Shown here: positions 19,929 through 46,550 of the stretch, one piece after another | Layout of the letters: every line of letters begins with the position of its first letter | Position numbering within the stretch: the first letter of the stretch is position 1 | Source of the DNA: a virus | IMG/VR virus record: IMGVR_UViG_3300031851_000044 | Span: 1 to 46,550 of that record | DNA: 46,550 nucleotides | Reading direction: 5' to 3' (one strand) | The notes under the pieces: model-generated | The model's input: the letters and a program-made list of their open reading frames with translations, nothing else | Told to the model about the DNA's origin: nothing | Database searches by the model: none | Made by a program: the position numbers and the translations under genes

Positions 19929-20714
19929 ATGTCTTTTGGTAAAGATGACCCTACATATAGAGGACCCGGCGTCGGACGCTCGAGGAAACTCGTAATTGAG
20001 ATGGATGGAACCGGAGATTATATTGAGATTGGAAACCACTCTCGATTTAATTTCACCAACGGAGTAGGGGATGACCAGCCATTTTCGATGAGCATGTGGG
20101 TTCAAACTGAAAGCCTATCAGATCAAGGCGCATTCCTATCTAAGAACAGTGGACAAGGCGTGCCGTCAAACTGGTTATTCTATCACGATGCCGGAAAAAT
20201 CTGGGCCATACTTTATGATGGAAGCGGGAGCAACCTTAACTCAATTAGAATTCAGAGCAATGCCTCAGGCTTGCTTAATCCTGGGCAATGGCACAACGTG
20301 ATGTTCACTTATGATGGGGATCAAACTGAAGCGGGGCTGAACCTTTATCTAGATGGACAGCCTGTGCCATCAACGAGAGATAATCCGCAGCCATACTCTG
20401 GATTAACCGCCACCAATAGCCCCGTTAGGATTGGCGCAAATGCAGCAAGCGGTGTAGGCAACGAGTTTGAGAAGTACATGACTGAAGCAGTTATATACGG
20501 AAATGAAGTCACTCCTGCTCAGGCTGTGGAGATTTATAATAATGGGCGTCCTTTAGACATGACCCAATACTCTCTGGCTGCAGGACTTGTGTCTTGGTGG
20601 AGGATGGGTGACGGAGATACAACTGGACCCAATGGCATAGACGATTCCGTAGGCATCTATAATGGTGAGCTAGAGGGAGACGCCAAGATAGTTGCAGTTA
20701 GAGATCTCCGTTAA
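19929..20714 (+). CDS. LamG/concanavalin A-like domain protein
   Basis: 261 residues from ATG 19929 (AGGA upstream; an in-frame TTG at 19923 is less likely). Residues about 20-185 show the LamG/laminin-G-like pattern: MDGTGDYIEIGNHSRFNF, PFSMSMWVQTES, GQWHNVMFTYDGD, GLNLYLDGQPV and PVRIGANA, ending with EAVIYGNEVTPAQAVEIYNNG and WWRMGDGD. Known: this fold binds glycans and occurs in phage appendage proteins. Its location next to lysis-like genes is unusual; a virion adhesin, late-expressed, is most likely. Its end overlaps the oppositely oriented regulator gene by 17 bases. Confidence 0.8.
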   Translation: MSFGKDDPTYRGPGVGRSRKLVIEMDGTGDYIEIGNHSRFNFTNGVGDDQPFSMSMWVQTESLSDQGAFLSKNSGQGVPSNWLFYHDAGKIWAILYDGSGSNLNSIRIQSNASGLLNPGQWHNVMFTYDGDQTEAGLNLYLDGQPVPSTRDNPQPYSGLTATNSPVRIGANAASGVGNEFEKYMTEAVIYGNEVTPAQAVEIYNNGRPLDMTQYSLAAGLVSWWRMGDGDTTGPNGIDDSVGIYNGELEGDAKIVAVRDLR

Positions 20715-21030
20715 TCGATATTTCTTGTGAGGCTTTTTTCACTATCGCTCCGTACTCCTCATCCGTTTTCATCCAGAGTGTCTGAGTCATCGATTTAAGG
20801 ACCTCGAAGCTGCTCATCTTAGACCTTCGGACATGACCCCTGTTTATTGGAGAGAGAAGACCTCCTTTAGATAGAGCATTGTTCATGCTTGACTGAGTCA
20901 TTCCGTACTCTTCAAGGAGCTCCTTCCACGTTGTGGGCCCGATTCGCTTTTGAACAAACTCGGACACCTCCCTATTTCTATCTAGAATTTCTTGGACTTC
21001 CTGCTTGGTGATGGGTCTAATTCTTTTCAT
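20698..21030 (-). CDS. Small HTH-like putative regulator
   Basis: 110 residues with TTAGGAG upstream. Residues about 32-60 (PTTWKELLEEYGMTQSSMNNALS) fit a helix-turn-helix. The rest is helical and basic, with an acidic/hydrophobic C-terminus. It is divergent from the ParB-like gene across only 44 bases and could control that interval. No family name is certain. Confidence 0.55.
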   Translation of the reverse strand: MKRIRPITKQEVQEILDRNREVSEFVQKRIGPTTWKELLEEYGMTQSSMNNALSKGGLLSPINRGHVRRSKMSSFEVLKSMTQTLWMKTDEEYGAIVKKASQEISINGDL

Positions 21031-21074
21031 GCCTGCTCCTAAGTAGGTACAGCTACAGTTAAAAGGGACAGAAA

Positions 21075-21668
21075 ATGAAAAACAAGGGGAATGTTCACAA
21101 GGATTTGACTCCGATGCTAAAGCCTCTGGATCAAATAGTTGCTGACCCGGACAACGCGAGGAGACATGGAAAGGAGTCCATTGAAGGAATTAAGCTAAGT
21201 CTTCTTCAGTACGGGCAGGTGTTCCCTGTGCTGGTAAGAAAGACTAGCAGCTATACGTTCACCTGCGTAGCGGGATCGGGGCGCGTAACAGCCGCCAAGT
21301 CCCTTGGCTGGGACAGCATCGCTTGCGTTGAATGGGACGGGACTGATGAGCAGGCAAGGGCATTCGCATTGGTAGACAACAAGACGGCGGAGCTTTCTAC
21401 CTGGGATTCGGATAAACTGGCTGAAGCGATATCATCTCTTCTCGATGGACCAGAGATGGATACCATTGATGCGCTAGGTCTTAAGGATGATCTTGTGATG
21501 GCGTTTGTGGATGAAGAGGGCGATGGACCTGAGTCGACCTGGTGTGAAGAAGATCCTAAGCCTGCCATACATAGGGTTATAATTTACGATACTGATGTTG
21601 CCAACGAGGTAATGTCTGAGATTGGACAACTCGTAATGAAGTACGGGGATCTAGTTGAGATAAAGTAG
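21075..21668 (+). CDS. ParB/Srx-fold nuclease-like protein
   Basis: 197 residues. Residues about 14-115 carry the ParB N-terminal pattern: DPDNARRHGKESIEGI, LLQYGQVFPVLVR, CVAGSGRVTAAKSLGW and ARAFALVDNKTAELSTWD. The last block is common in phage ParB-like proteins that stand beside or are fused to DNA methylases. The C-terminal 70 residues are acidic and unassigned; no helix-turn-helix centromere-binding domain is visible. Known roles of the fold: CTP-dependent partition, or nuclease. It converges end-to-end with the FtsZ-like gene, which ends one base away. Function here: unknown, possibly DNA binding or nicking. Confidence 0.75.
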   Translation: MKNKGNVHKDLTPMLKPLDQIVADPDNARRHGKESIEGIKLSLLQYGQVFPVLVRKTSSYTFTCVAGSGRVTAAKSLGWDSIACVEWDGTDEQARAFALVDNKTAELSTWDSDKLAEAISSLLDGPEMDTIDALGLKDDLVMAFVDEEGDGPESTWCEEDPKPAIHRVIIYDTDVANEVMSEIGQLVMKYGDLVEIK

Positions 21669-22688
21669 CTACTTGAGCCTAGCAAGAATCTTACTTCGTG
21701 GAGACCTCTCTCCAATGCTCAGGACTGTAGCGCGAATGGAAGGTCTAGACTCGTCTTCGTAAATTCCCCGGTGGATGTAAGAGTTTGGCATAGTGGTCAG
21801 GTACTTGTTTACCACTCCGGTAAAGAGGTCAAAGAACCTAACGTCACCATCGAGAATCCTGCTCGGCATGGTAAGCACCAGAGCGCAGTCCGACTCTTTA
21901 AGTGGCGAATCAGAATGAAGCACTGTGCCAGCAGTGAAGGCTATGTTGAGATGCTTCTCAACCAAGGTCCTGTCTTCCGGATTGTTAATTTCTCTAGACC
22001 CCACAAAGAGGGTCCCGCTTCTAAACATAAGCGTTTTAAGATCAGCCTTATCCAAACTAACCAGCATTGTTGGGGTAGCGGAGAGCCTATTGATTTTGTG
22101 AAGTATGTTTGCAAATGCAAGGTTACCGTCGATCCATAGGGTCCTTAATGATCTAGGCTTAACCCTTTTCTTAACTAGCTCGTTATCCATCACAATGAAT
22201 GGGGAAAGCTCACCTGAATCAGCCAAATCACAGCAGACACTAAGAAGGTTCTTGGCGTTTCTCCTTGTGGCGTCTGACACCAGCTCTTGCTTTGCAGGCA
22301 TGGATGATATCATTCCAACAGGAATGGATGGTAGACACATCTTCGCTACCTCAAGAACGGGCAACGCTGCACCTGAGCCAGTTCCTCCACCCGCACCAGT
22401 GCATATGAACACCTGGTCGCAATCAGACAAAGCCTTAATTGCGTCCCCTATTTCTTCCCTTTGGTTGGATGCTGCCTCTTCTGCTATAGATGGGTCTTTG
22501 CCTGCTCCGTCACCCGATTCCCCAATCAGAAGCTTTAAGTCCGATGGTACATCAAGTCCAGCTAGGTCTACATTGGCAGTATTTATGAATACACAGTCCT
22601 TGTATCCCAGAGAGTAAAAAGACTGAGCAATTCTGCATCCACCCTGACCTATCCCTACGAACCCCCACCGAAATGACACCTCACTCAT
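21669..22688 (-). CDS. FtsZ/tubulin-superfamily GTPase
   Basis: 339 residues. Seen: T1 loop GIGQGG (12-17), FINTANVDLAGLD (35-46, T2 region), GAGKDP (61-66, T3), the tubulin signature GAGGGTGSG (98-106, T4), MDNE (167-170, T6) and a catalytic T7 loop SLDKADLKTLM (211-221). That loop matches FtsZ N-x-D-x-A-D-V-x-T-V-M, with both aspartates (D213, D216) kept and Asn replaced by Ser. The C-terminal domain ends in IHRGIYEDESRPSIRATVLSIG-type sequence, as in FtsZ, but only a short basic tail follows and no FtsZ C-terminal peptide is visible. Known: such proteins form GTP-driven filaments. Start overlaps the upstream coiled-coil gene (ATGA). Inferred role: phage cytoskeleton for DNA or capsid positioning, or interference with host division. 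Confidence 0.9.
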   Translation of the reverse strand: MSEVSFRWGFVGIGQGGCRIAQSFYSLGYKDCVFINTANVDLAGLDVPSDLKLLIGESGDGAGKDPSIAEEAASNQREEIGDAIKALSDCDQVFICTGAGGGTGSGAALPVLEVAKMCLPSIPVGMISSMPAKQELVSDATRRNAKNLLSVCCDLADSGELSPFIVMDNELVKKRVKPRSLRTLWIDGNLAFANILHKINRLSATPTMLVSLDKADLKTLMFRSGTLFVGSREINNPEDRTLVEKHLNIAFTAGTVLHSDSPLKESDCALVLTMPSRILDGDVRFFDLFTGVVNKYLTTMPNSYIHRGIYEDESRPSIRATVLSIGERSPRSKILARLK

Positions 22689-23071
22689 AGGTCGAGACCT
22701 CGAAGCCTATCCACAAGAAATGATATGGTCTCCATCATGCCCGTAGCTCCACGTTCTAACCTGTGGCAATCACTCCTGCATCCGTTCAGTTTATACTGGG
22801 TCTTCTCATGTTCCTCAGTTAGGTCATCAAGCTTCTTCTGAAGAACCTCTGACTTCTCGCAATCCTTAACCAGGCCCTGCAGTCTATTTATATCCGCCTT
22901 CTGAGCGTTCATTGTTTGATTAGCATTTACGATGGCATCAATTAAGTAGTCAAAGGCAGTGCTTCTCTTGATGGAGATGCTGGTCTCTGGGTCACTCTTC
23001 GTAAGCTGCTCGCCGATCTCCTCGAGCCTTTGCAGCCTCATGTCGTCGGTATTGATCTGTATTCTAGGCAT
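22685..23071 (-). CDS. RHH-like/coiled-coil protein coupled to the FtsZ-like GTPase
   Basis: 128 residues from ATG 23071 (AAAGGA upstream; the longer frame overlaps the neighbour too far). Residues 1-50 (RIQINTDDMRLQRLEEIGEQL, here cited as RIQINTDDM then LQRLEEIG, and SISIKRSTAFDYLIDAI) have the strand-helix-helix look of ribbon-helix-helix DNA-binding proteins. Residues 51-105 are a heptad-type coiled coil, with a final amphipathic helix to 128. Its stop overlaps the GTPase start (ATGA), so the two are made in fixed ratio. Inferred: DNA or filament adaptor, comparable in role but not clearly in family to TubR/TubY. The RHH call is moderate. Confidence 0.6.
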   Translation of the reverse strand: MPRIQINTDDMRLQRLEEIGEQLTKSDPETSISIKRSTAFDYLIDAIVNANQTMNAQKADINRLQGLVKDCEKSEVLQKKLDDLTEEHEKTQYKLNGCRSDCHRLERGATGMMETISFLVDRLRGLDL

Positions 23072-23441
23072 TTTTAATCCTTTCAAATGACTTGGGGATG
23101 CACTTAATCCACGCATAAGGTCTTCTTACTTGGGTGTTGTATGTTGGGTCAGCCTGATTGTCATATGCCTCGATTTCGAAAGGAGACATTCGGTAAGCAA
23201 GGTAGGTATCTCGGTGATAAGCCAAGAGTATAACCCACCCTAATCCGTACATTATCCACTGCAGAAGAAAAAGACACTCCTTTTGCTGGAGGTAGTGCGT
23301 GATTTCATGCCTTCTAAGTGTTGGGCTTGCGATCCCACGGCACCAGACGAATATTAAAAAGGAAAATCCACCCACCTTAAAAGGCGCGATCTTAGAAAGT
23401 AGTGATGGAACCCTGGAGTTCTCAAAGAAAATCGGGAACAT
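23064..23441 (-). CDS. Membrane-associated HExxH metallopeptidase-like protein
   Basis: 125 residues. A membrane segment is visible near residues 22-36 (VGGFSFLIFVW), then the zinc motif HEITH (45-49) followed by YLQQ, a second hydrophobic helix (LLQWIMYGLGWVILLAY, 59-75) and FEIEAY (88-93), where Glu is a plausible third zinc ligand. This HExxHxxQQ...FExEAY layout is found in a small family of phage and bacterial membrane proteins. Known gluzincin logic supports a protease; substrate unknown. It overlaps the coiled-coil gene by 8 bases and sits inside the operon leading to the FtsZ-like gene. Confidence 0.7.
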   Translation of the reverse strand: MFPIFFENSRVPSLLSKIAPFKVGGFSFLIFVWCRGIASPTLRRHEITHYLQQKECLFLLQWIMYGLGWVILLAYHRDTYLAYRMSPFEIEAYDNQADPTYNTQVRRPYAWIKCIPKSFERIKNA

Positions 23442-23554
23442 GCGTCTTCAACCTTGAATTCTGTTTGAATGAATATGGCACAAAAAACAAGGATTATAAA
23501 GAGCAGCGCAGTGGCAGAGTTTAGGATTAGCATATCCTCTGCCCATCTAAACAT
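23354..23554 (-). CDS. Small single-pass membrane protein
   Basis: 66 residues; ATG 23554 overlaps the previous stop by 8 bases, and a second ATG at 23533 is also possible. One strong membrane helix is visible at about residues 12-30 (SATALLFIILVFCAIFIQ), followed by a basic, aromatic tail. The C-terminal third overlaps the start of the metallopeptidase-like gene in another frame (88 bases). The tight overlap with both neighbours supports a real gene, but no family is recognised. Confidence 0.45.
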   Translation of the reverse strand: MFRWAEDMLILNSATALLFIILVFCAIFIQTEFKVEDACSRFSLRTPGFHHYFLRSRLLRWVDFPF

Positions 23555-24053
23555 ATAGCTTCCCCATGCCCACCGTATTTAGAGTGTCATTGGCTGCCTG
23601 TATCAGGGACTGTATGTCTCCGTTTAGGTCAAACACTCGCGTGTTCCTGGGAAGTTTTCTTTTAACTGATACGTCGTTCGTAATGTAGACGGAGACCTGC
23701 TTGGTCGTCATGGTACATCGCACCATTCTGTTGTTATTGTAGAACATTCCAGTTGGATCGTTATCGTTCCCACCCATCAACACTCTGCCGCCTTTCCTGT
23801 GGAAGAGTTTTGCGAATCCCTTAGCATAGAAGGGTGGCTGGTTCATGTTGCCAAAGATTATTACGTCTGGGGTTTCTTCTAAGCTGGTTATGATGTTTCT
23901 AAGGTTGTAGTCCTTAGGCTCTTCCATATCAGGATCATTCGGGTCCCTCTGGGTCTCCGGTGTAGACAACACCGTCTCACCGGCATCAGCCAGCCTCTGA
24001 CTAAGGTCTCCGATTTCTTGAGTAATGAACCACTTCACGAGCTTAGCCTCCAT
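23547..24053 (-). CDS. Conserved-looking protein of unknown function in recombination operon
   Basis: 168 residues from ATG 24053; a TTG four codons earlier is less likely. N-terminal half is charged and helical. The middle has DVIIFGNMNQPPF and GGRVLMGGNDNDPTGMFYNNNRMVRC, a glycine/asparagine-rich stretch suggestive of a Rossmann-like loop, and the end has NTRVFDLNGDIQSL. No known motif was recognised. It overlaps the RuvC-like gene by 19 bases and precedes the membrane and GTPase genes, so it is cotranscribed with recombination and cytoskeletal functions. Confidence 0.65.
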   Translation of the reverse strand: MEAKLVKWFITQEIGDLSQRLADAGETVLSTPETQRDPNDPDMEEPKDYNLRNIITSLEETPDVIIFGNMNQPPFYAKGFAKLFHRKGGRVLMGGNDNDPTGMFYNNNRMVRCTMTTKQVSVYITNDVSVKRKLPRNTRVFDLNGDIQSLIQAANDTLNTVGMGKLYV

Positions 24054-24526
24054 CCGTATTCGCAAATTAAGAGTGCGTCACATATACCATCATGAGCAAC
24101 TCGAGCTCTATCACTTTTACGTAGATCCTCTGAAGGGAAAAGCCTTTTTGCTCCGAGTATGTTCCTGCCCTTGCCCTCACCTGGAACTCCACGCAGCATC
24201 TCCTTTGTCCATGAGATCGGACTAACCACCTCAATCGGTATCTCGAGTCCGCCACATATACCTAACCAGAGTCCGTAACCCAAGCCTGTTGTAAACATAG
24301 AGCTAACACCTTGACCAGGTCGAGCCTGCTGCCTTTCGATGAAGACCTTAGCGCCATCCTTAGATAGGGACTTCAGTATTTCAGACATACCTTGAATGTC
24401 ATACTCTTGCCTGCTTTTACCCACCTTGACCATAGGTGTTATTTGTTTAGAGGAGACGGCGTGCGTCTCTAAATTCATAGAGACAACAGCGCCGCTTTTC
24501 CCTGGGTCAATCCCAATAATATTCAT
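24035..24526 (-). CDS. RuvC-like Holliday-junction resolvase
   Basis: 163 residues. The RNase H-fold pattern of RuvC is visible: GIDPGKSGAVV (residues 5-15, first Asp), VFIERQQARPGQGVSS (about 60-75, with Glu), and AHDGICDALLIC near the C-terminus (last acidic pair). Known role: metal-dependent cleavage of branched DNA, resolving recombination or packaging intermediates. It starts one base inside the ssb stop (TAATG). Confidence 0.88.
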   Translation of the reverse strand: MNIIGIDPGKSGAVVSMNLETHAVSSKQITPMVKVGKSRQEYDIQGMSEILKSLSKDGAKVFIERQQARPGQGVSSMFTTGLGYGLWLGICGGLEIPIEVVSPISWTKEMLRGVPGEGKGRNILGAKRLFPSEDLRKSDRARVAHDGICDALLICEYGWRLSS

Positions 24527-25044
24527 TAGAATGGAATCGGGTCACTACCATTGGACGGTGCAGATCCCCACTGCTGTTGACCACCGTTCGGCTGCTGCTG
24601 AGGCTGAGAGCCCCACTGTCCCTGGCTTGGAGCAGACTGCTGATGCGGAGCTGAACCCCACTGCTGCTGTGACTGGGGTGCCTGCCGCTGCTGCTGAGGC
24701 TGCCTCTTCTGCATGGACATAGACTGCTGAGACTGAGACTCGTCTCGACTTCTATGTATCTCAACTGAGTCGGCAGTCATCTTCACAGACTTGCCGAATC
24801 CACCGTCCCTCTTTTGATATGCATCTACGCCGGTCACTCGACCCACAACAGTGACTCGAGCACCCTTCTTGACAGACTCCGCAATGGCAGCGCCGTAGTT
24901 ACCCCACACGCTAACCTGTGCCCACTCCGTGTTCTCTCTGCCGGTCTTGATGCCGACATTGAAGCTTAAGACCTGTTTTCCATCTCCAACAGTCTTCAAC
25001 TCTCCGTTATCGCCTACGTTTCCAATTATCGTCGAATGCCACAT
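24526..25044 (-). CDS. ssb: Single-stranded DNA-binding protein
   Basis: 172 residues. Residues 1-105 are a canonical OB fold: STIIGNVGDNGELKTV, VLSFNVGIKTG, EWAQVSVWGNYGAAIAESVKKG and ARVTVVGRVTGVDAYQKRDG. A long Gln/Ser/Pro linker follows (about 107-165) and the protein ends in GSDPIPF, matching the acidic-IPF tail by which bacterial SSBs recruit partner proteins. Upstream is the annealing protein, downstream the RuvC-like gene. It protects ssDNA during replication and recombination. Confidence 0.95.
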   Translation of the reverse strand: MWHSTIIGNVGDNGELKTVGDGKQVLSFNVGIKTGRENTEWAQVSVWGNYGAAIAESVKKGARVTVVGRVTGVDAYQKRDGGFGKSVKMTADSVEIHRSRDESQSQQSMSMQKRQPQQQRQAPQSQQQWGSAPHQQSAPSQGQWGSQPQQQPNGGQQQWGSAPSNGSDPIPF

Positions 25045-25056
25045 AGCATCTTCTCC

Positions 25057-25713
25057 TTACTGCTGGTCTTCCAGCTTGTTGTTTTCTTGATTATTTATTT
25101 CCTCTACCTTGTCCTTCAGGTAAAGAAGAAGCGAATCGATGTCGCCATTTTCTCTGTCAGCAATCTCGTAGATAGAGCTCCCGTTCGCCACTGATTTGAC
25201 ATACTGGTTAAGCTTGTCTTCAGACACGGACAACTCAGAGCAGAATCCTCTAACCTTATCCAACCCAGTCATTACGTACTCTGGATCATCTTCTGCACCC
25301 ATATATACATGCAGACCTAGCCCCATCATCGCCAAGCATTTAACAACACACCGCTGCTTTGCAGTGTTTATTGCCATAGAGTTTGGATTAACAATAGACT
25401 TATGCTTGTGATCCTTAACAGGCAGAAACATGCTCCTGCTAAATGACTCACCGTCCTCCCTAATCGTGATGGTGCAGTTTACCTCTGCCGTTCCGTCAGG
25501 GTAATACATGGCACAGGTCTCATACCCGCTTGGGTGCTTATACATTGAGAACTCAACAGTGTTATCTGGAAAGTCGTCATTAAGTATTTCCTGTGCAGCA
25601 TGCCACGCAAGGTAACTGTATCGACCCTTCTTCTCTATGTATCCATTCTCAAACACTCGCTTAGACCTAAACGATTCCCATACTTTCTTTGCTAACATTT
25701 CGTCCTCTTTCAT
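25057..25713 (-). CDS. Single-strand annealing protein (DUF1071/Sak3-like)
   Basis: 218 residues from ATG 25713; the in-frame ATG at 25698 has the better ribosome site (AGAGGA) and may be the true start. Pattern: RYSYLAWHAAQEIL (about 31-44), CTITIREDGES, MFLPVKDHKHKSIVNPNS, INTAKQRCVVKCLAMMGLGLHVYMGAED. This matches DUF1071-type Erf/Sak-like recombinases ('YLsWA.A...', 'LPVmd..nka', 'IN.A.qRClvK..A..GLGlyiY'). Known role: anneals complementary strands generated by a 5'-3' exonuclease. Context with YqaJ exonuclease and SSB confirms the module. Confidence 0.85.
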   Translation of the reverse strand: MKEDEMLAKKVWESFRSKRVFENGYIEKKGRYSYLAWHAAQEILNDDFPDNTVEFSMYKHPSGYETCAMYYPDGTAEVNCTITIREDGESFSRSMFLPVKDHKHKSIVNPNSMAINTAKQRCVVKCLAMMGLGLHVYMGAEDDPEYVMTGLDKVRGFCSELSVSEDKLNQYVKSVANGSSIYEIADRENGDIDSLLLYLKDKVEEINNQENNKLEDQQ

Positions 25714-25716
25714 TTT

Positions 25717-26790
25717 TTATTTCAGTGTAACCTTCAAAGTTTCATATCCGTCCCCTTCGGATTGATACTTCTCGTAAAGCCCTGGGTTATCACTCATGAA
25801 TTGATCTTTATCGAACCTCTTTCTACCGTCCCTTTTGGACACGGTGACCTTGAACGAGTCAGACTCCATCCACTTGTTCCTGCCCACAATAAATCTAAGG
25901 TGGTTGTCCATGAGCTTTATCTCTTCCTTAAGCCCACGCTCTTCCTCGGATAGATCCTTTAATTTTGCCTTAAGCCTAGCCCTACCCTCAATGATAGTGG
26001 AGACCTGAACGTACTCAGGGTCCGAACCGGACACCACTCTTCCGCCAGATCGCCCAGGGTTAGCCTCCATAATATTGATCTTACACCCATCGGTCTCGTC
26101 AACATCAGGCATAACTCTTGGCTCAACATTCTTGGTCCAGAAGTCTACTAGCTTCGGAAGGCTTTCTTCCTTGTAGTTTCCGCTGAAGTCAACCTTGCGG
26201 TACTCGACCCCCATGATAGGCTTCAGTACGCTAGGGTCTTCACCGGACTCAATCATTCTTACAAACGTTCTCCACGTATGCTCATCGCCTGTGGCCACAA
26301 GCAGGTAATTATGATCAAGACCGTGCTCTGATATCTCCGACTCATATGCGGATTTAAATATGCAGTCATAGTGCTCCAACTGACATCGATAATCTTTTCG
26401 ATCCCAATCAAAGCTCGCCCAGGTGTTGTCGCAACTCTTCACCTCAACGATTCCACGTATCTTCCCAGACTTATCAAACACAACCCTGTCCACCGTCGCA
26501 TGTATAAAAGGAAAATCCTTATGCCTAACAACGCCGCTGCCAAACAACTCTGCGATACGCATCCCCGTGGAAGACTCAAAGTCATCCTTAACCATATCGA
26601 CAATCTTATCTTCAGCAAGCAGCCCACGGTGCATGTTAAAGTTTACTGGGATACTGATGGGATTCCCGTCCAACGCAGAAACTATCTTACGATATGCAGC
26701 ATGACTGTTACCATACTTACTATGACCCAGGACTTGTGCTGCCGTCGTACCCCCGATGGAGTCTTTGGGCGGTGCAGTTCTATCACTCAT
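25717..26790 (-). CDS. YqaJ-like recombination exonuclease
   Basis: 357 residues. Motifs of the YqaJ/lambda-exonuclease PD-(D/E)XK fold are visible: GGTTAAQVLGHSKYGN (N-terminal), NMHRGLLAEDKIVDMV (about 60, RG..x.E), FIHATVDRVV (about 95-104, the catalytic Asp), GIVEVKSCDN (about 112-121, E-x-K) and CQLEHYDCIF (about 138). Residues 270-357 include a charged coiled coil. Known role: resects dsDNA ends for the annealing protein that follows 4 bases downstream. The start overlaps the upstream regulator-like gene by 8 bases. Confidence 0.92.
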   Translation of the reverse strand: MSDRTAPPKDSIGGTTAAQVLGHSKYGNSHAAYRKIVSALDGNPISIPVNFNMHRGLLAEDKIVDMVKDDFESSTGMRIAELFGSGVVRHKDFPFIHATVDRVVFDKSGKIRGIVEVKSCDNTWASFDWDRKDYRCQLEHYDCIFKSAYESEISEHGLDHNYLLVATGDEHTWRTFVRMIESGEDPSVLKPIMGVEYRKVDFSGNYKEESLPKLVDFWTKNVEPRVMPDVDETDGCKINIMEANPGRSGGRVVSGSDPEYVQVSTIIEGRARLKAKLKDLSEEERGLKEEIKLMDNHLRFIVGRNKWMESDSFKVTVSKRDGRKRFDKDQFMSDNPGLYEKYQSEGDGYETLKVTLK

Positions 26791-27058
26791 TAAGGTTTAC
26801 CCTGCCACCAGGAACGCCCTCTCTAATTAAGACGCTGTCCGAATCTGAAGACCTTCCTATTAATGCATCAACAGACACACCCAGGCACTCACTGGCCTCA
26901 ATAAGAGATGAGTACGGACTTCCTTCCGAAAGATTTCTCCACCAAGAGTATGGTCTTACGCCACCGTTCAACTTATACTCCTCAACAAAACTCTTAAGAC
27001 TCGAACAGCCCATTGCCATGATTCGAATCTTAATTCTTCTAGATATTTGGTCAGTCAT
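26783..27058 (-). CDS. First gene of recombination operon, possible HTH protein
   Basis: 91 residues; AAAGGAG precedes ATG. The middle (PYSWWRNLSEGSPYSSLIEASECLGVSVDALIG) reads like a winged or simple HTH from about residue 35 to 68, with ASECLGVSVDAL as recognition-type helix-turn-helix. N-terminus is basic (SRRIKIRI). It overlaps yqaJ by 8 bases. Position at the head of the operon beside a divergent promoter region fits an autoregulator; no firm family. Confidence 0.55.
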   Translation of the reverse strand: MTDQISRRIKIRIMAMGCSSLKSFVEEYKLNGGVRPYSWWRNLSEGSPYSSLIEASECLGVSVDALIGRSSDSDSVLIREGVPGGRVNLNE

Positions 27059-27182
27059 TATTTGACTCCTTTCTTAATCCTTGACCATCATGCATGAAAA
27101 GTTTTTTAAAATAAAGGTTTATTTATCAATTTTATTAGAATAGTGTTTCTGGGTCTGGTTACTTATTAATAAGGGGGTTGAG
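27059..27182. promoter_or_regulatory. AT-rich divergent promoter region
   Basis: 124 bases between the leftward recombination operon and the rightward helicase gene. It contains AT-rich tracts (TTTTTTAAAATAAAGG, TTATTAGAATAG) with -10-like boxes such as TAGAAT at 27136-27141 on the plus strand. No clean -35/-10 pair at 17-base spacing was found on either strand. Divergent gene starts imply that promoters for both lie here. Confidence 0.5.
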
Positions 27183-28463
27183 TTGTTTTCAATGCACGAG
27201 GATCTTGAGGGGCAGATTATTTCTTCCTGCCTCCAAGGGGCTGACTTGACGGAGTTTGTCAGCCTGTCTGCTGACTGTTGGACCAGCGAGGTTCATCAAA
27301 ATGTTCACAAGGTTGTATGCGATTTATTCATGTCTGGAAACGACGTGGATCAGATAAGTGTGTATCACTCGCTTCAGTCAACAACCACTCCGGTCAAGTT
27401 TGACTACTTGATGAACATGAGCTCTGAATATGTGATGGTGTCCTCTACGTTTGGTAAGATGTGCCAGAGCCTTAGGGAGTCAACCCAGCAGAGACGAGTC
27501 GTTCAAGCGGTATCTGAAGCCGTCGTTCTAGCCAAGGATGCTTCCAGCGCATATGAGGCGAGACAGACTGCCATAGGTCGCCTACTTGATATGGACGACT
27601 TGACTCCTGAGCAAAGACTCTTCTCCGCCAAAGACTCGCTTCAATCTGTGATAGGGCTTGCTCAGGCTGCCTTTGAGAGACCTGAGGCGGAGAAGAATAG
27701 ACCGCCAGGGATATCGTCAGGAATCCAGGGACTGGACAAGATACTTGGTGGATTCAGACCTGGAGGACTCTATGTTCTTGGCGCTGGAACGGGTCGCGGA
27801 AAGAGTGTTCTGGGCGTCAACATTGGATTTGATGCTGCAATGAGAGACACGAAGGTGATGTATTGCTCTCTCGAGATGTCCCACGTTGATCTAATGAGGA
27901 GGATAGTTAGTTCTGAATCTGGGATCGCAGGAAACCTGATAGAGTCTGGACACCTTTCGTCCGATCAAATTGACAGCCTACAGCACTCTGCAGGCAGAAT
28001 CTATTCTGCGTCAGGCAATTTCCTGATACTCGATCAGCCGTCATTAAGTCTATATCAACTGGGTGCAGCAGTAAGGCAGCAGGTGAAGCTTGGGAAGTGT
28101 GACATGGTCATCGTTGACTACCTTCAACTTCTCAGGACGGACTCTACCTACTCGAGGGAGAGGGAGGTTGCGGAGATATCCAGCAGCCTGGTTGCTATTG
28201 CAAGAACAAATGACATTCCAGTCATTGCTCTAAGTCAACTCAACGATGGTGGTCAGATTAGGGAGTCTCGAGCAGTAGAACATGACGCCACAGGCATCCT
28301 TAAGATAGCCTACCCAGAACACGTTGAGAGCGAGTGGAGCGAGGGTCATGAGACGGTCGAAGGGTCTATTATAGTTCAGAAGCATAGGCACGGCAGGACG
28401 GGGCGGGTTAACGTAATGTTTGATAGACCCAAGCAGAGGTTCTACGAATTGGTTTCTAACTGA
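27183..28463 (+). CDS. dnaB: DnaB-family replicative helicase
   Basis: 426 residues. TTG 27183 is chosen because AAGGGGG lies 5 bases upstream; ATG 27192 is the alternative. Residues 1-110 form the helical N-terminal domain. The RecA-like core has Walker A GAGTGRGKS (200-208), GISSGIQGLDKILGGFRPG before it, CSLEMS, Walker B VIVDYLQLL (about 309-317), SREREVAEIS, IPVIALSQLN and an RHGRTG arginine-finger region. Known role: 5'-3' hexameric unwinding at the fork. No primase or DNA polymerase gene is visible in this window, so the host enzymes are presumably recruited. Confidence 0.92.
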   Translation: MFSMHEDLEGQIISSCLQGADLTEFVSLSADCWTSEVHQNVHKVVCDLFMSGNDVDQISVYHSLQSTTTPVKFDYLMNMSSEYVMVSSTFGKMCQSLRESTQQRRVVQAVSEAVVLAKDASSAYEARQTAIGRLLDMDDLTPEQRLFSAKDSLQSVIGLAQAAFERPEAEKNRPPGISSGIQGLDKILGGFRPGGLYVLGAGTGRGKSVLGVNIGFDAAMRDTKVMYCSLEMSHVDLMRRIVSSESGIAGNLIESGHLSSDQIDSLQHSAGRIYSASGNFLILDQPSLSLYQLGAAVRQQVKLGKCDMVIVDYLQLLRTDSTYSREREVAEISSSLVAIARTNDIPVIALSQLNDGGQIRESRAVEHDATGILKIAYPEHVESEWSEGHETVEGSIIVQKHRHGRTGRVNVMFDRPKQRFYELVSN

Positions 28464-46061: not shown

Positions 46062-46550
46062 GTTTCTCTTCACTTTCACGGGGTATTTTTCCCCCCTACA
46101 TTTTTCTTTATGTGCATACACCGTACACACTGTGTGCACATGTCATGCTTCATCTAATTTCACGTGCGCGGTTCTTTAGCATACGCAGGCCGGCACTCCT
46201 TTTAATGGCAAATATCACTTGACCGATTTGTCAACACGGGGTTGACCGATTTGTCATCTACTTGACAGTTTTGTCATGTTGCACTGTGTCATTGTTGACC
46301 GATTTGTCATGACACAGAGCGTTAAAGCTGCGTCATAAAACCGAGCAAATTGATGCACAGTGACAAAAAATGTCAGTCATTGTATCGTAAATTGTCACCT
46401 TTCAAAATGTGCACGACGTAAAACCGTGCAATATCACGTTGTAAGTTATTGAAATTGTTGCCAGCTTGTATATTCAGTGTCTACGACGACTCGCGCACAC
46501 TAGATACCGTATACCTCTCGATGCATACCCTCAGGCATTAAAGCCCTATC
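46062..46550. promoter_or_regulatory. Gene-free regulatory region with palindromic repeats
   Basis: About 490 bases with no credible gene. TTGACCGATTTGTCA occurs at 46219-46233, 46242-46256 and 46295-46309; TTGACAGTTTTGTCA at 46262-46276. TGACAAAAAATGTCA (46361-46375) keeps the TGAC...GTCA arms. TAAAACCGWGCAA occurs at 46336-46348 and 46419-46431. Each TTGAC box is -35-like, and on the minus strand the same sites begin with TGACA, so promoters and operators probably coincide. The leftward early genes start just to the left. Confidence 0.7.

Follow-up and report, generated by a model that had tools for sequence, protein, structure and literature searches.

What kind of tubulin does a virus of ordinary size encode, and what might it do there? 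The question is raised by a gene at 21669..22688 (minus strand) of the window, by which we mean the whole stretch of DNA analysed here, virus record G000 with its 46,550 bases. Known phage tubulins come almost solely from jumbo nucleus-forming phages, which carry PhuZ, and from plasmid-like prophages, which carry TubZ. Only two phage-tubulin subgroups were recognised by Aylett et al. in 2013 (PMC3678025) and likewise in a comparison of jumbo phages in 2021 (PMC7824862), and a tubulin/FtsZ protein cluster was reported, and not placed, in a hot-spring virome paper (PMC8597652). Our literature search, thin on subscription journals and preprints, returned no published description of the viral tubulin clade to which the gene belongs.

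The open reading frame starts with ATG, has no internal stops and encodes a complete protein of 339 residues, classified here on Pfam, tree and AlphaFold results as a viral tubulin-like GTPase of a tail-less clade. It matches the Tubulin family (Pfam: PF00091) at 1.1e-17 with 65.4 bits (cut-off 33) and PHROG 17961, a group annotated as of unknown function, at 3.8e-10; its sequence matches in the PDB are FtsZ (7.7e-16), RepX/TubZ (1e-12) and c-st TubZ (1e-9), and composition-shuffled copies of it gave zero matches to any family profile. The AlphaFold (AF2) model is confident (pLDDT 90.8, pTM 0.91) and contains the two-domain fold with the central H7 and T7 loop, for which Foldseek returns TubZ and FtsZ at 1e-22. 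Profile search and model thus agree with a sequence-only reading of the locus, which had predicted a GTPase of the tubulin superfamily whose catalytic loop is intact and had suggested predicting its structure. Because the full frame is kept in three sibling contigs, at 96% identity, and in a homologue at 62% identity (L012), we regard the gene as maintained.

In the alignment, the T1 loop GIGQGGC occupies residues 12-18 (22635..22655, minus strand), the T4, or tubulin signature, loop GAGGGTGSG residues 98-106 (22371..22397, minus strand) and the T7 synergy loop SLDKADLKTLM, with the catalytic aspartates D213 and D216, residues 211-221 (22026..22058, minus strand). The T1 loop has a Gln, like plasmid TubZ-like proteins and CetZ and unlike FtsZ. 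The T4 and T7 motifs had been read from the sequence with both aspartates intact, and rightly so: D213 and D216 are unchanged across 20 of 20 aligned viral members, and the GG and DN motifs are likewise kept in the viral tubulins. The reported exchange of the FtsZ T7 Asn for Ser also holds, FtsZ Asn207 corresponding to Ser211 of the window protein, and Ser or Thr is found at this position in nearly all viral relatives. Two relatives, L087 (10625-11662) and, at the same place, L088, have an insert of 346 residues directly ahead of the T7 sequence FDRAD, which begins with Cys, ends with VTGN, is followed by Thr and contains LAGLIDADG-like stretches. It looks, by these sequence features, like an intein, and a PDB sequence search with it gave zero matches. 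Since inteins favour conserved active sites, such an insert beside T7 would be an indirect hint that the loop works.

Past P330, the last conserved position of the core, the protein has only nine more residues, hence no FtsZ linker and, as first noted, no FtsZ C-terminal peptide. The sampled viral rows extend 4-19 residues past this position, compared with 39-42 in PhuZ, 73-76 in RepX, 48-150 in plasmid TubZ-like proteins and 25-114 in FtsZ, and neither the H11 helix nor the C-terminal tail known from PhuZ and TubZ is present in the sampled members of the viral clade, the window protein included. PhuZ has helix H11, as do c-st TubZ and Bacillus TubZ, and each subunit of the phiKZ protofilament packs its C-terminal tail against its neighbour (PMC3678025). 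At the other end of the chain, most viral relatives have N-terminal extensions of 34-110 residues and the window tubulin has none. Tubulins of the T4-related group (L013-L077) share a conserved acidic, IPTLDIEDYDPDLNEE-like N-terminal extension, absent from the window protein, which is a possible partner-binding motif.

The sequence-only reading had labelled the protein FtsZ/CetZ-like, on the grounds that its T7 region is closer to FtsZ than to PhuZ or TubZ. The local likeness of the T7 loop is real (DxADxKTxM), and the window protein alone scores 82.7 bits with the FtsZ profile versus 52.9 bits with that of RepX/TubZ and 11 bits with that of PhuZ. The family, however, prefers TubZ. A profile built from the larger viral group gives 197 bits for the window protein, about 91-159 for plasmid TubZ-like rows, 117-121 for RepX, 96 for phage G, 42-68 for FtsZ, 60 for CetZ and 6 for PhuZ; a viral-only profile finds RepX/TubZ first in the PDB (1.6e-30) and then archaeal FtsZ (3.9e-24); and profile-profile comparison with hhalign aligns the viral family to TubZ at 2.9e-32 over 323 columns, to FtsZ at 3.8e-27 and to PhuZ at 2.4e-5, over 98 columns only. 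The fold search points the same way, the window model being nearest to Bacillus cereus TubZ (TMq 0.85, rmsd 3.2), with FtsZ at 0.65-0.73 and 22-24% identity in the fold alignments; as scores normalised by target length are similar for TubZ and FtsZ, fold alone does not decide between the two.

In our main tree (55 rows, 17 of them viral, with FtsZ, CetZ, PhuZ and RepX/TubZ), the 17 viral rows form one branch with a support of 96/95, beside the TubZ/RepX clade and not inside it, and FtsZ, CetZ, PhuZ and RepX each form a separate, fully supported clade (100/100 for FtsZ, CetZ and PhuZ). Once long branches and near-duplicates are removed, the viral branch retains 84/75 and the window tubulin is still paired with L012. 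Forcing this pair to group with FtsZ is rejected by the AU test (p-AU 0.02), and forcing it to group with FtsZ and CetZ together is not (p-AU 0.24). On the FtsZ equivalog model TIGR00065, the window tubulin reaches 75.9 bits against a cut-off of 295.2, that is, 219 bits short. We therefore reject an FtsZ identity on the equivalog score, the tree and the AU test, and find the FtsZ/CetZ-like label unsupported. A PhuZ identity, which the earlier reading had correctly disfavoured, is rejected on the profile score, the short hhalign match, a fold TM of 0.53-0.59 and the separate PhuZ clade. The window tubulin is neither PhuZ, nor a plasmid-type TubZ, nor a bacterial FtsZ, and belongs to a separate family of uncultivated viruses; TubZ is its nearest neighbour by profile and fold, and the tree also allows a grouping with FtsZ plus CetZ. 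The initial observation was real, mis-assigned in detail, and exposes a widespread viral family.

These data bear on two readings that tie the protein to cell division. Capture of a host FtsZ (or CetZ) by the phage could draw on the best single PDB matches, which are FtsZ, and on the tolerated FtsZ and CetZ grouping, but the model score, the rejected FtsZ-only grouping, the well-supported viral clade and the absent C-terminal peptide largely refute an FtsZ capture and leave the idea with hardly any credence. The FtsZ-like T7 loop would also suit an inhibitor of host division, which as a decoy would poison host FtsZ or assemble together with it; we consider it improbable at the low identity to FtsZ, for a family that is widespread beside packaging genes and has, in the window, a coupled adaptor gene (see below).

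Set against named systems, the viral protein shares with TubZ/RepX of plasmid type III partition (PDB 4ei7 and 2xka, the nearest solved folds, TMq 0.85 and 0.83) the DN motif, a GL..P motif before H11 and a small gene directly upstream. It differs in being 21% identical, in ending without H11 and tail, in having D-x-x-D in T7 where RepX has D-x-x-E, in residing in a phage without detected plasmid genes, and in a candidate adaptor that lacks a TubR-like family or fold match. With PhuZ, the spindle tubulin of chimalliviruses, it has in common that it is phage-encoded and has a D-x-x-D T7 loop, but there is almost no sequence link and the listed PhuZ carriers have genomes of 234-322 kb. FtsZ and CetZ share with it the fold and loops of the superfamily, including the T7 likeness in the former and the T1 Gln in the latter, and are set apart by their separate clades and, for FtsZ, by the T7 Asn and C-terminal peptide. 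Gp138 of Bacillus phage G (“putative FtsZ-like cell division protein”) is a phage tubulin matched by the larger viral group at 3e-7, its only match in named phages, but is 22% identical, has a C-terminal region of 61 residues and groups with plasmid TubZ-like rows outside the viral clade. Among viral structure predictions, the top match is BFVD A0A6J5RW92 (“FtsZ Cell division GTPase”) of an uncultured Caudovirales phage (TMq 0.90, rmsd 2.2); it has 452 residues and 24% identity, is not in our tree, and is probably a member of the same family annotated as FtsZ.

The family is found in at least 86 IMG/VR loci by alignment query, a protein-only scan having given the three siblings at 96%. Of the 80 relatives kept for inspection, L012 is 62% identical to the window protein and most others about 27-34%, usually over the full length; 65 fall into a single cluster at 60% identity. 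Among 50,697 phage records, none gave a relative of the window protein at E<0.01, which fits the earlier remark that such a protein would be unusual for a phage of this size. The top weak named-phage match, MT835570 (MT835570.1, L008), was discarded as a bacterial division-gene contig labelled Bacteriophage sp., with MurC-like, FtsQ-like, FtsZ, SepF-like and DivIVA-like frames in that order. More distant, plasmid-type relatives occur in 16 bacterial loci, all Bacillota by title. For some plasmid tubulins from Bacilli (L108, L110, L111 and L137), the annotation reads cell division protein FtsZ or hypothetical, and those placed in the tree fall with the TubZ-like rows, away from FtsZ.

Among the 80 viral loci, 73 of which continue for more than 3.5 kb past the tubulin gene, 60 have a terminase gene and 56 a portal gene downstream of it; PHROG profiles on a sampled locus recognise the terminase large subunit, the portal and SbcC/SbcD homologues. 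The tubulin gene of L078 comes directly after terminase and portal genes, and that of L086 after a baseplate wedge gene. In 50 loci, a small gene whose product has a membrane-spanning-like stretch ends about 14 bases upstream of the tubulin; this protein (e.g., L014:9512-9898) is conserved in the T4-related group, where it is a possible membrane partner. The conserved spot upstream of terminase and portal, the membrane-protein-like neighbour and the absent C-terminal tail would also suit a factor in virion morphogenesis: a protein of packaging or assembly, perhaps itself part of the virion, which retains the tubulin fold but acts together with terminase and portal instead of as a long filament. 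This is quite unlikely in our view, given that the catalytic T7 aspartates, whose action in polymers of the superfamily spans the interface between subunits, are invariant, and that the window tubulin lies outside the packaging block.

The window genome itself encodes a terminase whose nearest named relatives, Aeromonas phage 56 and Roseobacter phages CRP-901/902 (records of 43-53 kb), are about 40% identical, a portal, a prohead protease (Pfam: PF03420), a T4 Gp23-type major capsid protein (Pfam: PF07068, 7.2e-32), a tape measure and fibres, as well as a DnaB helicase and a recombination module of exonuclease, Sak annealing protein, SSB and resolvase. The tubulin gene sits at the end of this module and not beside the terminase. 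The sibling G002 (L142:8366-18977) runs about 10.6 kb past window position 1, without a match to the rest of the window, and adds the remainder of a 1,848-residue tape measure gene as well as genes for an endolysin-like protein and a glycosyltransferase; a tail sheath was not recognised in this extension. The window record is therefore incomplete, and the full genome is probably near or above 57 kb. The convergent neighbour of the tubulin gene (21075..21668, plus strand) has a ParB_N domain by profile match and resembles ParB-like phage proteins; it probably stands outside the tubulin system.

Upstream, the tubulin start overlaps by ATGA with a gene for a candidate adaptor of 128 residues (22685..23071, minus strand), which is 49% identical in L012 and was seen only beside the window-type tubulin, in four of four loci. 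Its AlphaFold model has helices at 9-25, 30-72 and 75-126 (pLDDT 81.6, pTM 0.35, first seven residues poor). The N-terminus, with a short strand-helix-helix pattern before the long predicted helices, resembles a ribbon-helix-helix (RHH) domain, and the modelled remainder suggests that this is probably a coiled-coil protein. Pfam, PDB profile and fold searches gave no assignment and no DNA-binding family; it may nevertheless bind DNA. Its gene overlaps in turn a frame of 125 residues (23064..23441, minus strand) with a HEITH motif and no family match, a possible small metallopeptidase.

As plasmid tubulin operons do, the locus has a small gene immediately ahead of the tubulin, and TubZ is the nearest relative by fold and profile; both raise the prospect of type III partition, in which a TubZ-TubR-tubC-like set of filament and DNA-binding adaptor would segregate the phage as a low-copy plasmid prophage, with a precedent in phage c-st (tabulated in PMC8026635). 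Around the tubulin gene (20500-27300), no clustered repeats that could form a centromere were found except a repetitive stretch inside the SSB gene. An array at 46218-46310, in the non-coding end region, repeats TTGACCGATTTGTCA (dyad-like TTGAC...GTCAA) four times, with two mismatches in one of the copies, and is a candidate operator, origin or centromere-like array. It lies 23 kb from the tubulin gene, however, and the sibling contigs end before it; integrase, repressor, plasmid Rep and ParA are absent from the window genes scanned, and most relatives adjoin T4-related packaging genes without this adaptor. We judge partition unlikely.

The reading to which we tentatively lean, and which we rate a little short of an even chance, is that of a third-lineage tubulin on the TubZ side, whose GTP-driven filaments position phage DNA or packaging sites and are, in this phage, tied to them by the adaptor. 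The window tubulin would most likely bind GTP and form dynamic filaments. Their link to phage DNA would come from the small adaptor, expressed from the same message, and as the filaments grow and turn over with GTP, replicated genomes or packaging sites would be shifted or centred within the infected cell; filaments of the T4-related group would be tied to other partners instead. This positioning role is supported by the TubZ-like fold, the retained D213/D216, GG and DN motifs, the single viral clade, the synteny with terminase and portal, the late-gene placement in L078 and L086 and the overlapping adaptor gene. It is weakened by the missing H11 and tail, by an adaptor without family or fold match, by the lack of a centromere-like array nearby and by the position of the window gene in the recombination module. 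Comparable roles are known from PhuZ, which positions the phage nucleus (PMC13282480), and from the actin-like AlpC, which with the DNA adaptor AlpA takes part in the transport of viral DNA (PMC4446434, PMC5539076). A wider form of the proposal, that tail-less cytomotive filaments of a third tubulin lineage organise genome packaging in T4-related and other viruses through partners that differ between lineages (in this phage an adaptor that binds DNA, in the T4-related group a membrane protein), is conceivable and more doubtful. A tubulin family common to viruses of ordinary size and T4-related ones, and linked to their terminase and portal genes, would make filament-based organisation of the infected cell far more widespread than thought; it also opens to experiment whether tubulin serves phages that lack a nucleus in placing their DNA or packaging sites, and how a filament without C-terminal tails works.

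A layout of motor and adaptor similar to that in the window is also seen on a Salinibaculum plasmid (L116:297-632), where an ftsZ-like gene is directly preceded by a ribbon-helix-helix gene of the CopG type.
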